A DNA stretch of 32,936 nt from the IMG/VR virus record IMGVR_UViG_3300031857_000793, positions 1-32,936 of that record; one strand, given 5' to 3'. This document shows positions 4,357-15,128 of this stretch, one piece after another. Numbering within the stretch: position 1 is the first letter of the stretch; every line of letters starts with the position of its first letter. A model generated the notes under the pieces. It did not search any database and was not told the DNA's origin. It saw only the letters and a list, made by a program, of their open reading frames with translations. A program made the translations under genes and the position numbers. The DNA comes from a virus.

Positions 4357-4374
4357 ATTTTAAGGAGAGAGAAA

Positions 4375-4902
4375 ATGGCAACATACTTGCGTCAAGAAAT
4401 AAACAACTACACTAAATCAATTACAGTTGAGATTGACTTTAACTTGTTTAGTGATGGACAAATTAAAAACATGATTAAATATATTCGTAATGGTCATGTA
4501 TCGAAAGGGGACTCAGCTACATCTACTATTGTTAGATGCATCTTTAAAAAATATTCTATACCACACTTTTTATATGGACGATGGTGGTCTGATTGGAAAC
4601 ATATACCAAACGGTCATTCTTTCTTTGAAACGCTAAAAGGGGTAGCATCAGTCGCCAAACTTACGGCTGATCAATATAGTTCAAAACGTATAGATGAAGA
4701 CATAGCTAATGCAGAAGCACAAAATACTTCAGGTGATATGAGAATGGGTTCTTATGACGAACTAGTGATACAACAGTTAAAGAAAAGTATGACTATAAAA
4801 AGTGAACTTTCTGATGAAGTAAAAGAATTTCTTGAGAAATTAGAAAACAGAACACTTGGTGTAGTGCCTATGGATTTTTATGAAGTAGCTACTAGATATT
4901 AA
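4375..4902 (+). CDS. Hypothetical protein, 175 residues
   Basis: Strong ribosome site (AAGGAGAGAG) behind hairpin copy 3. The first 90 residues are of mixed type with several Trp, Tyr and Phe (RWWSDWKH); the rest is helical and charged, with a possible coiled coil near residues 135-160 (SMTIKSELSDEVKEFLEKLE). I see no catalytic motif or membrane segment and do not recognise it. It opens the gene run after the ATPase/VWA genes. Confidence 0.7.
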   Translation: MATYLRQEINNYTKSITVEIDFNLFSDGQIKNMIKYIRNGHVSKGDSATSTIVRCIFKKYSIPHFLYGRWWSDWKHIPNGHSFFETLKGVASVAKLTADQYSSKRIDEDIANAEAQNTSGDMRMGSYDELVIQQLKKSMTIKSELSDEVKEFLEKLENRTLGVVPMDFYEVATRY

Positions 4903-7467: not shown

Positions 7468-7479
7468 AAGGAGAGAGAT

Positions 7480-7674
7480 ATGGCAACAAAGTCAACGAAG
7501 CCTACCGTTAGGGAGACTTCTGCTACGACATTCGATCGTGGCGAACGCAACCTCATCGTCACCATACATCATGGTGTTATCAAAATTAGACCTAAAGGAT
7601 TAAAGTCAGAAGAAGTTATTGACATCTCTGCAATCTATGAACATGCAGTTAAAGCTAGAGTTAGGGGAAAATAA
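7480..7674 (+). CDS. Small hypothetical protein
   Basis: 64 residues behind AAAAGGAGAGAG, the same strong ribosome site used after the hairpin elements but here without the hairpin. Disordered Thr/Ser-rich start (residues 1-20), then a beta-rich part (RNLIVTIHHGVIKIRPKG) and a short helix ending in KARVRGK. Basic overall. Not recognised. Its TAA overlaps the next ATG. Confidence 0.6.
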   Translation: MATKSTKPTVRETSATTFDRGERNLIVTIHHGVIKIRPKGLKSEEVIDISAIYEHAVKARVRGK

Positions 7675-9853: not shown

Positions 9854-11008
9854 ATGGATACAGTATTAGAGTTTAAAGAGAAAGGGTATGTTCACTTAAA
9901 AGGATTTTTACACGCTGATTCATGTAAAGAACTAACAAGAGAACTTAAAAGACTAGTTGATCAAAAGAAAACAGTTAAAGATGACCAATGCCCTAAGTCT
10001 GAAGCTATACATGGCACAGTAACCTTTGATAAATTATTAGAAGATTTAACTCCACACTTTGAACAAGCATCGGGGCTTAAACTATTTCCTACCTATTCAT
10101 ATGCTAGATTTTATAACAGTCAAGACGAAGAATTAAAACTTCATAGAGATAGACCTGCATGTGAAATATCAGCTACGCTTACATTAGATTTTGAAGGTGA
10201 TGTATGGCCTATCTACATGGGTAATAATGAAGATAAGTCTAATGCTACAGAAATTAAAATGGAGATCGGCGATGCCGTTATGTATAGAGGTTGTGACATT
10301 TATCATTGGCGTGAACCTTATAAAGAAGGTAAATGGCAGGCACAAGTATTCTTACATTATGTAGATCAAAATGGTCCACACGCTGAATGGAAATACGATA
10401 AGCGTGAGTCATTGGGATTAAGTAAAACAGCTTGTGACCAAACAAATCAGATTCAAGCGTTTGAAGATTGCTATCTAGTTCTAGACGCAGTAAGCGAAGG
10501 TTTTTGTGACAAACTTATTCAAGAATATTCTAAACCCGAAGTAGAAAAAGAACTTCCGTTTATTGGAAAAGGTCGAGACATAGAAAAGAACATTGATTTA
10601 GATATTAGAAATGTGCAAAGGCTACAACTACCTTTATATGCAGGCATCGGTGCAACACTTACAGCTATAGGTTTAAATGTAAATAATGAAATATGGAAGT
10701 ATGACATCACGCATTCTAATCAATCAGAGTTTTTAATGTATGATGTTAAAGGTAAGTATGAAACCCATGTAGACACCTTTCATGGCAGATCAACTGAAGT
10801 TAGAAAGCTTACTGTATTAGTATTCTTAAATGATGATTTTGAAGGTGGTAAATTTTATATAGCTAATGGTCATGAAAGAATGTATCCTGAACAAAAGAAA
10901 GGAACAGTCTTAATATTCCCTTCCTTCATGCCACATGGTGTAGAACCTATTACAAAAGGTATTAGATACTCTATCGTAACGTGGATGGTCGGACCATATT
11001 TTAAATAG
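9854..11008 (+). CDS. Tandem Fe(II)/2-oxoglutarate oxygenase
   Basis: 384 residues with two oxygenase domains in one chain. Domain 1 (about 1-175) has H97-x-D99 and H151 in a WREP context; its 2-oxoglutarate-binding basic residue could be K160 but is not certain. Domain 2 (about 200-384) resembles the prolyl-4-hydroxylase type: H305-x-D307, LNDDFEGGKFYI, H361 and R371 exactly ten residues later. Both iron triads look complete. Such enzymes use O2 and 2-oxoglutarate to hydroxylate proteins, nucleic acid bases or small molecules. Single-domain versions are common in marine phages with unknown targets. The place directly behind the DNA polymerase (AGGAG, 8-base gap) would suit a DNA or nucleotide target, but this is inference. 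Confidence 0.85.
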   Translation: MDTVLEFKEKGYVHLKGFLHADSCKELTRELKRLVDQKKTVKDDQCPKSEAIHGTVTFDKLLEDLTPHFEQASGLKLFPTYSYARFYNSQDEELKLHRDRPACEISATLTLDFEGDVWPIYMGNNEDKSNATEIKMEIGDAVMYRGCDIYHWREPYKEGKWQAQVFLHYVDQNGPHAEWKYDKRESLGLSKTACDQTNQIQAFEDCYLVLDAVSEGFCDKLIQEYSKPEVEKELPFIGKGRDIEKNIDLDIRNVQRLQLPLYAGIGATLTAIGLNVNNEIWKYDITHSNQSEFLMYDVKGKYETHVDTFHGRSTEVRKLTVLVFLNDDFEGGKFYIANGHERMYPEQKKGTVLIFPSFMPHGVEPITKGIRYSIVTWMVGPYFK

Positions 11009-11551: not shown

Positions 11552-12218
11552 ATTTAAAACGTGGTCTTACTCAAGTGCCACTGCATTTGAAAAATGTCCT
11601 AAGCAATACTATCATCTGTATGTAGCGAAAGATATTAAGCAAGACCCGAATACAGAACATTTTCTTTATGGCAACGAAGTTCACAAAGCTTGTGAGTTAT
11701 ACGTTAAGAACGCAACTCCTCTTCCTGTCAAGTTTGAAATGTTTAAACCAACGCTTGACAAATTAATTTCAATTCCAGGAGATAAATACTGTGAATATAA
11801 ATTAGGCTTGACAAAAGAATTAGAACCTTGCGACTTCTTTGCCTCTAATGTTTGGTGGCGTGGTGTAATTGATTTATTAGTTATTAATCCTGAAAGTAAA
11901 ATGGCTACGTTAATTGATTATAAAACGGGCAAGTCAAGTCAGTATGCAGATACACGTCAACTATCTTTGTTTAGTGTAGCTATATTTAAACACTTTCCAG
12001 ACATGACTAAAATTAAGTCTGGCTTGGTTTTCTTGGTATCTAAAGAGATATTAAAAGAAGACTATACATCGGATAAAATAGATGATATGTTTGCAGAATG
12101 GGGTAAAATAACGTATAGGATAGATGCTGCCCACAAGTCAGGTACTTTTAATGCAGTCCCTAATTTTGCTTGTAGAAAATTCTGTCCCGTTCAATCATGC
12201 TCACATTGGGGAAAATAA
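11544..12218 (+). CDS. RecB/Cas4-like PD-(D/E)XK nuclease
   Basis: 224 residues. RecB-type motifs in order: YSSATAFEKCP near 9-19, GNEVH (G43, H47) with E51, D110 in GVIDLLV, D125-Y-K127 in LIDYKTGK, then RQLSLFS. All core residues are present. A cysteine-containing end (CRKFCPVQSC) with C18 near the N-terminus recalls the iron-sulfur-binding cysteines of Cas4/AddB-type nucleases, though the spacing was not matched in detail. Family role: exonuclease acting on DNA ends in recombination or host DNA breakdown. The TAA overlaps the ATG of the HNH gene. Confidence 0.85.
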   Translation: MAEFKTWSYSSATAFEKCPKQYYHLYVAKDIKQDPNTEHFLYGNEVHKACELYVKNATPLPVKFEMFKPTLDKLISIPGDKYCEYKLGLTKELEPCDFFASNVWWRGVIDLLVINPESKMATLIDYKTGKSSQYADTRQLSLFSVAIFKHFPDMTKIKSGLVFLVSKEILKEDYTSDKIDDMFAEWGKITYRIDAAHKSGTFNAVPNFACRKFCPVQSCSHWGK

Positions 12219-12487
12219 TGGCAAGAGATTATCAAAAAGAAAACGAATATAAAGCACAACCTGATCAAATTAAAAAGCGTGTAGCTAGAAATAAAGCTAG
12301 ACGAATGATGATAAAAGCTGGTAGAGTATCAAAGGGTGATGGTAAAGATGTAGATCATATTATCCCTTTAAGTAAAGGTGGTAGTAATACCCCTAGCAAC
12401 ATGCGAATTAGAAGCAAAAGTGCTAACAGTTCTTTTCCTCGTAATAGTGACAAGTCTATGAAAAGGAATGTAACAAACAAAAAGTAG
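12218..12487 (+). CDS. Small HNH endonuclease
   Basis: 89 residues from the ATG at 12218 (TAATG with the nuclease before); a longer in-frame start at 12197 lies within that gene. Highly basic N-terminus (KKRVARNKARRMM), then the HNH core VDHIIPLSKGG with the following N (SNTPSNMRI), in which DH and the later Asn are the expected metal and catalytic residues. It lacks the usual CxxC zinc knuckle. It may be a homing endonuclease or a phage DNA-processing nicking enzyme. The structured non-coding segment begins right after its stop. Confidence 0.8.
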   Translation: MARDYQKENEYKAQPDQIKKRVARNKARRMMIKAGRVSKGDGKDVDHIIPLSKGGSNTPSNMRIRSKSANSSFPRNSDKSMKRNVTNKK

Positions 12488-12624
12488 AAGACCCGCAAGG
12501 CGTGAGTGCGGAAAAACCACGTCAGTTAACAGTAGGTACCTTTATGATGTGACCTTTCAACCTAGGTGTTAACACTGCAGTGTGTAGACGTGTCACTACC
12601 TCTCTCGGTGGCACGTCTATTTTT
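12488..12624 (+). ncRNA. Structured leader or small RNA with attenuator-like layout
   Basis: A gap between the HNH and helicase genes, visibly richer in GC than its surroundings and full of inverted repeats. A hairpin CCGCA/TGCGG spans 12493-12511. CACGTC (12518-12523) can pair with GACGTG (12587-12592), enclosing GTTAACA/TGTTAAC (12525-12531 with 12567-12573) and TAGGT/ACCTA (12533-12537 with 12560-12564). The same GACGTG is also the left arm of the terminator at 12586-12624, so the two folds exclude each other. A 12-base palindrome ACACTGCAGTGT lies at 12572-12583. No known riboswitch or group I intron core sequence was recognised. Confidence 0.5.
12586..12624 (+). terminator. Intrinsic terminator before the helicase gene
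   Basis: AGACGTG (12586-12592) pairs with CACGTCT (12612-12618) in 7 pairs, then after a 3-base bulge CTACC (12596-12600) pairs with GGTGG (12607-12611, one G-U pair), closing a TCTCTC loop. ATTTTT follows at 12619-12624, giving the usual stem plus U-tract. It would end transcripts coming from the nuclease genes or be regulated by the competing fold upstream. Confidence 0.7.
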
Positions 12625-12640
12625 AATTTAGGAGATTGCA

Positions 12641-14197
12641 TTGGAAGTATATAAAGACAGGGCGTTAATCGTTAATACAAAACGACCTGAACTAATTTTA
12701 GATAAGATACCAAAAAGTAAAGTTGTCAGAACTTACGATAATGGCGTAACTCAAGTTGTAGTCAACTGGGGGTTAGATGAAGTTATTACTTTATCTGATA
12801 TGAAAGTTAAAAATCCTCCTTCACCTATATCTCGTGATTATAACTGGCCAGGAATTCATAAACCTTTTGATCATCAAAAAATAACAGCTGAGTTTTTATC
12901 AGCACACAGACGTGCTTATTGTTTAAGTGAAGCAGGTACAGGTAAAACATCTGCAGTTATATGGGCAGCTGATTACTTAATGAATCAAGGTAAAGTTAAA
13001 AGAATGCTAGTAGTATGCCCACTATCTATTATGCAGGCGGCATGGCAAGCAGACTTTTTTAAAACTGCTATGCATAGAACCGTAGGTATTGCTCATGGCT
13101 CTGCTGAAAAAAGAAAGAAAGTATTTGCAGAAAATACAGACGTAGTTATTATTAATTACGATGGTATAGAAATTGTAGAGAAAGAAATTAAATCAGGCGG
13201 TTTTGATTTAGTAGTAGTTGATGAAGCTAACTACGTCAAGACTGTCTCGACACGTCGCTGGAAGTCACTTAATCGTATTCTAAATCAGAACACGTGGCTG
13301 TGGCTTATGACAGGAACACCCGCTGCTCAATCACCAGCTGACGCATATGGACTGGCTAGACTTGTGAACCCCGCATCCGTACCTAAATACGCAGGAACAT
13401 TTAAGGACATGGTAATGCAAAAAGTTAGCCAGTTCACCTGGGTGCCTAGATTCAATGCACAAGATATTGTGTTTAAAACGTTACAACCTGCCATTCGATA
13501 TACTAAAGACGAATGTCTAGACTTACCTGATGTGTTATATACAACACGAGAAGTCCCTCTTACTCCACAACAAGAGAAGTATTATAAGCAGTTAAAGAAA
13601 GATATGTATATGGAAACTGCAGGGGAAGAAGTTACTGTAGTTAATGCAGGTGTAATGCTAACTAAATTATTACAAGTAAGTGCAGGCTCTATATATTCTA
13701 ATACTAAAGGGGTTATTGAGTTTGATATATCAAATCGCATGACGGCGTTGAAAGAAATTATAGATGAAGCTAGCCACAAAGTTATCGTATTCTGCCCGTT
13801 CCGTCATAGCATAGATACTATTATGGCAGCGTTAAGAAAAGATAAATTAACTTGCGAAGCTATACATGGTGATGTATCTATGAATAAACGCACAGAGATA
13901 TTTAAAAACTTTCAAGAAGCTAAAGACCCACAAGTTTTAATTATTCAACCTCAAGCTGCATCACATGGCGTAACACTCCACGCAGCTAACGTAGTTGTGT
14001 TTTGGTCACCTGTGATGTCTGTTGAAACATATATACAATGTTGTGCTCGTATGGACAGAGCTGGACAAAAAAATAAGATGACCGTAGTACACCTACAAGG
14101 CTCCCCCGTTGAAAAACGAATTTACAAAATGCTTGAAAATAAAATTGATACGCATACAAAACTAGTTGATCTTTACAAAGAGGAGTTTGCAGAATGA
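12641..14197 (+). CDS. SNF2-type superfamily 2 helicase/ATPase
   Basis: 518 residues. The start is TTG at 12641, chosen because AGGAG at 12630-12634 is 6 bases upstream and the reading frame begins there. Motif I is EAGTGKT (K102); Ia, VVCPLSIMQAAW; II, DEAN at 194-197; III, LMTGTPAAQSP; V, QPQAASHGVTLHAAN; VI, CCARMDRAGQ. This is the SNF2-like layout found in many phages. Such proteins translocate on double-stranded DNA and remodel protein-DNA complexes or branched DNA; stripping host proteins or helping recombination is plausible. It stands behind the terminator/attenuator region and ends in an ATGA overlap with the second HNH gene. Confidence 0.9.
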   Translation: MEVYKDRALIVNTKRPELILDKIPKSKVVRTYDNGVTQVVVNWGLDEVITLSDMKVKNPPSPISRDYNWPGIHKPFDHQKITAEFLSAHRRAYCLSEAGTGKTSAVIWAADYLMNQGKVKRMLVVCPLSIMQAAWQADFFKTAMHRTVGIAHGSAEKRKKVFAENTDVVIINYDGIEIVEKEIKSGGFDLVVVDEANYVKTVSTRRWKSLNRILNQNTWLWLMTGTPAAQSPADAYGLARLVNPASVPKYAGTFKDMVMQKVSQFTWVPRFNAQDIVFKTLQPAIRYTKDECLDLPDVLYTTREVPLTPQQEKYYKQLKKDMYMETAGEEVTVVNAGVMLTKLLQVSAGSIYSNTKGVIEFDISNRMTALKEIIDEASHKVIVFCPFRHSIDTIMAALRKDKLTCEAIHGDVSMNKRTEIFKNFQEAKDPQVLIIQPQAASHGVTLHAANVVVFWSPVMSVETYIQCCARMDRAGQKNKMTVVHLQGSPVEKRIYKMLENKIDTHTKLVDLYKEEFAE

Positions 14198-14670
14198 CAA
14201 CTAATGAGCAAGCAAAACAATGGAGGCTTAATAATGCTGAAAAATATAAAGCATATCAAATTAAGTATAGAGAAAAGAATCGAGATAGATTTAATGAAGC
14301 TCAAAAAACATGGGGTAAAAATAATCCTGAAAAAGCTATATTAACAAAGACGAAAACAAGGGCTAAGAAAAATGGCACTGAATTTAATATAGATATAAAT
14401 GATATACGCATACCTGAAAAGTGCCCTATATTAAACATACCAATCATTAGAGAATTTAAAGGTGGTGGTAATAAAAATAAAGGCCCTAGAGCAACATCAC
14501 CTTCAATAGATAGACTAGACAACACCAAAGGTTATGTAAAAGGAAACATACAAATCATTAGCCACAAAGCTAACGCAATGAAAAATAATGCATCTGCTGA
14601 AGAGTTATTACAATTTGCCTTTTGGGTAATACTTACCTATGGTCATTTAATTGATAAAGAAATTAGTTGA
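14194..14670 (+). CDS. HNH-like homing-type endonuclease
   Basis: 158 residues. The long Lys/Asn/Glu-rich helical N-terminus (residues 1-50) looks like a DNA-binding region with WRLNNAEKYK- and KNNPEKA-type repeats. The core has EKCPILNIPI, then SPSIDRLDNTKGYVKGNIQIISHKANAMK, the pattern of phage homing-type HNH endonucleases in which the D-R-L-D, the N of GNI and the H are conserved. It overlaps the helicase by 4 bases and its stop codon lies inside the -35 box of the promoter at 14667. Probably a mobile gene inserted between functional genes. Confidence 0.75.
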   Translation: MTTNEQAKQWRLNNAEKYKAYQIKYREKNRDRFNEAQKTWGKNNPEKAILTKTKTRAKKNGTEFNIDINDIRIPEKCPILNIPIIREFKGGGNKNKGPRATSPSIDRLDNTKGYVKGNIQIISHKANAMKNNASAEELLQFAFWVILTYGHLIDKEIS

Positions 14671-14694
14671 CATTGTAAATAAGCATGATATAAT
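14667..14694 (+). promoter_or_regulatory. Consensus sigma70 promoter with extended -10
   Basis: TTGACA at 14667-14672 and TATAAT at 14689-14694, 16-base spacer, with TG at 14686-14687 giving an extended -10 (TGaTATAAT). Transcription should start near 14701, 23 bases before the ATG at 14724. The TGA stop of the HNH gene is formed by bases of the -35 box. There is no inverted repeat over this -35, unlike the promoter at 673. It would drive the ssDNA-binding and primase-helicase genes. Confidence 0.85.
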
Positions 14695-14723
14695 ACTATC
14701 CTTAAGTTTTGAAAGGAGTAAAT

Positions 14724-15128
14724 ATGGAGTTAGACAACAATCAAATTGAGAAGCTAATGAAAGCTTCTGTCAATATGAGAGATAAGATTGAAGAGCTAGA
14801 AAAACAAATTACCGACATTAAAGTGCAAAAAGATAAAGTCGATTTAGCGTTAAATGAAACTTGTAGAACATTAAATGTAACTAGTTTGAAAACAAGTGTA
14901 GGAACATTATCAAGAACACTCAAAACTAGATATTGGTCGAACGATTGGCCTAGTATGTATGAGTTTATTCTTGAAAATAAATTGCCTGAATTCTTTGAAA
15001 AAAGATTAGTGCAATCAGCAATTAAAGAATACTTGGAGCAAAACCCTGATAAACAACCACCAGGTTTACAAGCAACAAGCGAATATACAGTAAGAATAAC
15101 TAAAAGCCGAAATAAGGAGGAAGTATGA
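14724..15128 (+). CDS. Coiled-coil phage protein
   Basis: 134 residues from the ATG at 14724, set by AAAGGAG; an in-frame ATG at 14709 lies upstream of that site. Residues 1-50 form a likely coiled coil (MRDKIEELEKQITDIKVQKDKV). The second half has TLKTRYWSNDWPSMYEFI and PPGLQATSEYTVRI, a pattern I know from many phage proteins of unknown function encoded near ssDNA-binding proteins. It is the first gene of the promoter at 14667 and overlaps the next gene by ATGA, so the two probably act together. Confidence 0.65.
   Translation: MELDNNQIEKLMKASVNMRDKIEELEKQITDIKVQKDKVDLALNETCRTLNVTSLKTSVGTLSRTLKTRYWSNDWPSMYEFILENKLPEFFEKRLVQSAIKEYLEQNPDKQPPGLQATSEYTVRITKSRNKEEV

Follow-up and report, generated by a model that had tools for sequence, protein, structure and literature searches.

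The noncoding segment studied here is probably the 3' part of a phage-encoded RNA of about 130 nt, which belongs to an undescribed family and, judged from sequence comparison, would act in trans as an anti-Shine-Dalgarno small RNA. It is located in the window, i.e. the whole stretch of DNA that was analyzed, a viral contig of 32,936 bases. That the RNA family and its fold exist is almost certain. An unpaired loop complementary to the ribosome binding sites (RBSs) of several mRNAs beyond chance, as expected of an anti-Shine-Dalgarno small RNA, was found, and pairing in trans at these RBSs is likely from the comparative evidence given below.

The RNA locus in the window

A noncoding gap of 153 bases separates a small HNH endonuclease-like gene (12218-12487, + strand), located directly upstream of the RNA, from the SNF2 helicase gene (12641-14197, + strand), which has a TTG start 16 nt past the terminator of the RNA. 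The whole RNA presumably extends from 12491 to 12624 on the + strand, with the intrinsic terminator as its 3' end and with conservation from helix P1 to the terminator in 45 relatives. A model of the core gave a single match over the window (56.4 bits). The G+C content of the segment (0.41-0.46) exceeds that of nearby sequence (0.30-0.40), in agreement with the first-pass annotation of this DNA, which had also rightly named the next gene downstream an SNF2 helicase and had recognized no RNA class. Indeed, no Rfam 15 family covered the RNA at gathering scores in the window and 14 diverse relatives, and relaxed filters gave a chance match only.

Upstream of the RNA, the window shows no conspicuous sigma-70 promoter. 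The 16-nt gap between terminator and SNF2 gene leaves no room for a promoter, so that SNF2 expression in the window needs read-through. Two perfect sigma-70 consensus promoters are found elsewhere on the + strand, at 673-701 (TTGACA-17-TATAAT) and at 14667-14694 (TTGACA-16-TATAAT with TG). An ORF in the phage replication region (9854-11008) matches PHROG families annotated as ferrochelatase and 2OG-Fe(II) oxygenase. In most lineages, the RNA is immediately preceded by the HNH endonuclease-like gene or a homologue, for which the conserved RNA gene may serve as homing site; alternatively, both may move together.

Fold of the RNA

The RNA starts with two interleaving helices, P1 (CCGC 12493-12496/GCGG 12508-12511) and P2 (GGCGUG 12499-12504/CACGUC 12518-12523), which form an H-type pseudoknot. 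Next come P3a (12525-12531/12567-12573), a helix of exactly 7 bp, and a long hairpin. This P3 hairpin (12525-12573) continues through an internal loop into P3b (12533-12537/12560-12564) and ends in a distal loop including ACCUUUCAA. The intrinsic terminator (12585-12624) consists of a stem maintained by compensatory change (12585-12597/12607-12619), the loop CCUCUCUC (12599-12606) and a U-tract (12620-12624). All of these elements are on the + strand, and G.U pairs in P2 and P3 identify the + strand RNA as the functional form. The conserved unpaired bases of the core are AA, AGU, AAC and the internal-loop G.

Folded by itself, the RNA sequence of the window stands out only slightly (z -1.81; 12 of 200 shuffles equally good). 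Hence, support for the structure is mainly comparative. Strong compensatory change was observed in P1, P2 and P3 among about 70 distinct relatives from diverse phage contigs. Across 36 diverse cores, 96.3% of cells are paired, and the covariation of the pseudoknot amounts to 0.451 versus 0.226 when shuffled, with 0 of 500 shuffles reaching the former value and slid versions giving at most 0.17. The three inner pairs of P1 are formed in about 93% of cells, with changes on both sides of each. Among 45 close relatives, the share of paired cells is 97% for P1 and 100% for P3a as well as for P2, the last value being partly imposed by the search pattern. As the core filter demanded P2 pairing, the scan was rerun without constraints on the two central base pairs (NN/NN), which represents the fair test. 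Members with the P1 helix then displayed GU/AC, AU/AU, GU/GC, AC/GU, GC/GU, GC/GC, GA/UC and GG/CC in P2; a U.U mismatch occurs in the L350 group, which is one clade, and the other unpaired matches look like chance. Of 73 members, 56 have a P3a of exactly 7 bp, compared with 6.5% expected by chance. The 35 distinct P3a sequences include compensatory types at the helix positions, and 34 of them carry a G just 5' of the 3' strand. Pyrimidines predominate in the distal loop of P3, where CCUYY is found in 20 of 29 representatives versus 4.1 expected. Small additional hairpins occur as well, one with a CGUAAG-like loop (CCCGUAAGGG), often just after P3, in L276, L283, L291, L292 and L314, and one with an ACGUYACG loop at the place just after P3 in L063, L068, L073 and L277.

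The first-pass annotation had interpreted the segment as an attenuator, in which GACGTG (12587-12592) pairs with either of two CACGTC copies (12518-12523 or 12612-12617). These three elements are located as described, and so are GTTAACA/TGTTAAC and TAGGT/ACCTA, which correspond to P3a and P3b, and the terminator with its U-tract. The mutually exclusive pairing, in contrast, did not withstand comparison. In the 45 close relatives, 12518-12523 covaries with 12499-12504 and not with the terminator arm, so that covariation of this arm in homologues, by which the annotation itself had proposed to judge the switch, speaks against it. The pair 12519/12591 of the proposed switch is A.C in 27 of the 45, because the terminator went from U-A to C-G while the upstream arm stayed unchanged. 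The alternative pairing is possible on paper, but it is at least 14 kcal/mol weaker than the conserved fold (-13.4 kcal/mol together with P3 and -18.9 with P1, versus -33.1 to -34.5 for P1 or P2 with P3 and terminator). The structured RNA does end in an intrinsic terminator, and what the evidence favors is the fallback mentioned in the same annotation, namely the end of a stand-alone small RNA.

Distribution and genomic context

An SNF2-based search of viral contigs yielded 80 loci, the closest of which have mostly conserved the intergenic RNA. By pattern scans, the core AAGGCRYGAGUG..AACCRYGYCAG was found in many unrelated-looking contigs with 35-68% G+C, and each RNA-bearing record among those searched carries one copy of the motif. 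A contig scan with a looser pattern included chance matches among the matches listed. The core pattern, which could miss divergent copies because it is exact, gave zero hits in a sample of 754 genomes from two bacterial classes. No match was obtained when the window, L291 and L301 regions were compared by Blast with 50,697 phage records. Short core queries produced chance matches only, among them one to phiLM21 (16.9 bits), in which the AAGGC segment is altered, and one to an Erwinia plasmid. When the model was run over the full length of 11 named phage records, a single weak chance match came up; none of the named phages tested carries a convincing copy. Similarly, no description of the RNA family was found in Rfam or in the literature searched, the coverage of which mostly excludes subscription papers and preprints. 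Two individual records deserve mention. L305 (IMGVR_UViG_3300010036_000009) carries the core motif and a promoter-like sequence downstream of a gene with a C-terminus resembling a PEP-CTERM signal, and its contig may thus be bacterial or prophage instead of free phage. L356 (IMGVR_UViG_2788500033_000002) carries the GG/CC variant of the RNA; its identifier suggests an isolate genome, which could offer a culturable system.

The common gene order is exonuclease-HNH-RNA-SNF2. Elsewhere, the RNA is followed by a terminase small-subunit gene or another phage gene (L328, L298, L270, L299). In L278, L279/L303, L362 and L146, a convergent gene lies beyond the RNA, which therefore cannot be a leader in these lineages; the 5'-leader position that the attenuator reading implied is seen in many lineages, yet not in these. 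Hence, the RNA itself is the constant part while its gene context varies, which argues for an autonomous role. The RNA often begins within about 20 nt of a stop codon. A promoter-like sequence directly precedes it in a minority of lineages, e.g. TTGACA-17-CATTAT in L271 and TTGACA-16-TAGACT in L291. Terminators are enriched after the RNA (10 of 33 versus 2.6% of control stretches). Some lineages lack a terminator at this place, and there the RNA would be part of a longer mRNA. Regarding the features of a separate transcript, a terminator is present, while a promoter is found in some lineages only and not in the window. tRNA genes on the strand of the RNA were found in L299, immediately upstream of it, and in L301, about 2.9 kb upstream.

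Complementarity between RNA loops and ribosome binding sites

In the window clade, the terminator loop CCUCUCUC contains CUCUCUC and is complementary to the RBS motif GGAGAGAG. Its predicted probability of being unpaired in the window is 0.99, and it is proposed as the seed that pairs with the GAGAGAG of the target RBSs. Of five GAGAGAG sites in the window, the four on the + strand (791, 1836, 4364 and 7470) are all RBSs, and the fifth is the complement of the loop itself. The corresponding proposed target RBSs, all with GGAGAGAG on the + strand, are found at 791-805 before an ATG at 803 (53 aa), at 1836-1850 before the AAA ATPase gene (1848-2894, phrog_1297), at 4364-4377 before ORF 4375-4902, and at 7470-7482 before ORF 7480-7674. 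At the latter two ORFs, the motif is kept in three loop-bearing relatives and lost in the loopless C_G774. A possible further target is the RBS TTGAAAGG (14709-14723, + strand) of ORF 14709-15128, which is an 8-nt complement of the P3 loop and represents a weaker case with one site; the consensus promoter at 14667-14694 just precedes this ORF.

The combination GGAGAGAG..ATG occurs in 2-6 copies in each of nine loop-bearing records, compared with 0 for a reversed-pattern control, and four such sites are present in a tenth, L327, on the strand of its RNA. L333 has one such site. Among smaller loop-bearing fragments, L068 and L269 have one each, and L063 and L073 have none. No site was found in six records of other RNA lineages, in nine SNF2 relatives without the core motif, or in L047, which carries the RNA without the loop. 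General AGGAG sites are common in both groups of records. Comparing loop presence with absence, the RBS motif was found at 27 of 315 versus 2 of 538 predicted gene starts. In the L047 contig, all three conserved target RBSs lack the motif, with two target orthologues being 87-89% identical and one more divergent. The loop-RBS match of the window clade comprises 7 bp only, and the loop-bearing lineages A, A' and B are related, so that their common motif does not reflect many independent events.

In other lineages, different loops match different RBS motifs over up to 12-15 nt. Loop ACUUCUCCUU matches the motif AAGGAGAAGU at six RBSs (10-11 nt) and loop GUCCUUUCGAGU the motif ACUCGAAAGGAC at three RBSs (12 nt), while lineage E displays a 15-nt match and lineage F AACAAAGGA; matches of 9 nt and shorter are found elsewhere. 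When assignments were permuted 20,000 times among 18 lineages, no permutation reached the cognate match at K=7, 8 or 9; the p-values are subject to the caveat that the lineages were delimited by eye and that not all of them are independent. Because RBSs are purine-rich, some complementarity to any pyrimidine loop is expected, which permutation and double centering allow for. A held-out test without A, A', B and G, where the effect was noticed, gave p=0.00045, 0.00035 and 0.0005 at K=7, 8 and 9, although it cures only partly that the RBS motif was noticed after looking. With T and E also removed, the corresponding values were p=0.0073, 0.035 and 0.083, the result being weak at K=8 and not significant at K=9-10. 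Taken singly, about half of the lineages give no clear or significant signal. The cross-match was noisy with loosely called gene starts and became clear with better ones.

The AAA ATPase gene (phrog_1297) offers a comparison within one gene, as its orthologues have a different RBS in each lineage and these RBSs track the RNA loop. Of 5,040 possible assignments in a 7x7 matrix of duplex energies, the cognate one ranks first, and it is also the best of 120 in the held-out set; the duplex of lineage I comprises 13 bp including the start codon. In those A, B and G lineages that were examined, the RNA and its targets share a strand, with the targets located upstream. The matching RBSs of lineage T are found on the strand opposite to the RNA, and pairing there is possible only in trans. 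Predicted loop accessibility amounts to 0.92-1.0 in A, A', B and O, and to about 0.5-0.7 in G, T, E, F and C.

Proposed function and alternative explanations

Based on these data, the small RNA would most likely be released from an early operon, from its own promoter in some lineages and as part of a shared transcript in the window. Its exposed pyrimidine loop, i.e. the terminator loop CUCUCUC in the window clade and the P3 loop in other lineages, would then base-pair in vivo with the Shine-Dalgarno regions of several early mRNAs of the same phage, among them that of the AAA ATPase gene, and the paired RNA would block ribosome binding. Given such pairing, repression is a very likely outcome and would be preferred over activation. 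Since the RNA is encoded downstream of its targets, a delayed shut-off is proposed. For the conserved pseudoknot, 5'-end protection or protein binding are candidate roles.

A cis-acting leader, i.e. a riboswitch, attenuator or protein-binding element controlling the downstream SNF2 or terminase gene, would account for SNF2 coming next in many lineages, for the read-through that SNF2 requires in the window, and for those lineages with a promoter before and no terminator after the RNA; its sharply conserved core could bind a ligand or protein. This explanation is nevertheless unlikely, as the proposed switch pairing is not conserved, convergent genes follow the RNA in the four cases named above, a promoter-like sequence lies past the terminator in L063 and related contigs, the downstream gene differs among lineages, and the loop-RBS matching is left unexplained. 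Antitermination in cis, with the RNA inducing polymerase to read through the following terminator in the manner of put elements, would fit the position directly before terminators in the window clade, where SNF2 needs read-through. However, the RNA also precedes terminators with convergent genes beyond (L278, L279 and L362), and put elements consist of two hairpins and are not known to form a pseudoknot, which renders this explanation very improbable.

A novel small self-cleaving ribozyme that processes phage transcripts would explain the compact pseudoknot, the fixed helix length, the conserved unpaired bases, the single copy and the variable gene context, and Pistol likewise has three stems and a pseudoknot according to the accessible part of its description (PMC4604425). 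Yet, no Rfam family matched, known ribozymes included, a cleavage site is not evident and the loop-RBS matching is unaccounted for. Ribozyme activity is thus improbable as an explanation, although it could coexist with a small-RNA role. The frequent start within about 20 nt of a stop codon, or near a promoter, would suit an RNA-stability or processing element, the pseudoknot of which blocks ribonucleases at the ends of early phage mRNAs. Such generic protection need not preserve so precise a sequence and gives no reason for the loops, making this role quite improbable. Three further candidates were rejected. Coding readthrough or frameshift after the HNH stop conflicts with the frame varying relative to the conserved core among relatives. 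A cos site, considered as some copies precede terminase genes, disagrees with the G.U pairs, which indicate RNA, and with the varying contexts. A type III antitoxin pseudoknot gave no Rfam match.

Comparison with known regulatory RNAs

The trans-acting small RNA proposed here resembles attenuators and riboswitches in that a structured RNA and then an intrinsic terminator precede a gene. In contrast to these, it has no conserved competing fold, is not always a leader, and its loops match RBSs elsewhere in the genome. Like the Pistol ribozyme, it is a small conserved pseudoknot RNA, but it has no Rfam match, and the helix order and consensus of Pistol differ from those of the phage RNA.

Phage-encoded small RNAs as such are already known, e.g. 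PreS of lambda and VpdS, as covered in the accessible sections of a review (PMC12197685). The window RNA, for which a regulator role is predicted, is phage-encoded as well. In those sections, PreS and VpdS are tied to Hfq and to rebalancing of host small RNAs or replication, and no common structured family spanning many phages is described; the word pseudoknot is absent from the review (PMC12197685).

Closest in principle are the rhizobial small RNAs Alpha-r14/NfeR1, which display exposed anti-Shine-Dalgarno loops and for which RBS occlusion is supported by reporter assays, according to the part of the study available (PMC10746234). There, pyrimidine hairpin-loop motifs pair with the RBSs of several mRNAs, as is predicted here for the phage RNA, and the loop motif is preserved while stems diverge, a further likeness (PMC10746234, same part). 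The same text presents these RNAs as chromosomal, with three hairpins and one ultraconserved CCUCCUCCC motif, and does not describe a pseudoknot (PMC10746234). Unlike NfeR1, the RNA described here is phage-encoded, has a pseudoknot core, and carries a loop that varies by lineage and tracks the phage's own RBS motif. What appears new relative to known small RNAs, as far as sequences tell, is thus a pseudoknot scaffold common to diverse phages with lineage-specific loops tracking the RBS motif.

Implications for phage biology

More broadly, a fixed pseudoknot scaffold with an interchangeable anti-Shine-Dalgarno loop, coevolving with the common RBS motif of each phage, may constitute a phage-wide, sequence-addressed translational switch that times early genes, possibly with a dedicated protein partner; we consider the chances of this broader model to be about even. 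If true, a conserved RNA family would exist across very different uncultured phages, and its targets could be read from the genome, as loop and RBS coevolve. The model would also account for the repeated use of a single extended RBS sequence across many genes in some phages, and its scaffold could be employed as a programmable translation repressor. Hence, it becomes testable whether lytic phages time their own translation by a structured small RNA matched to their common RBS motif.
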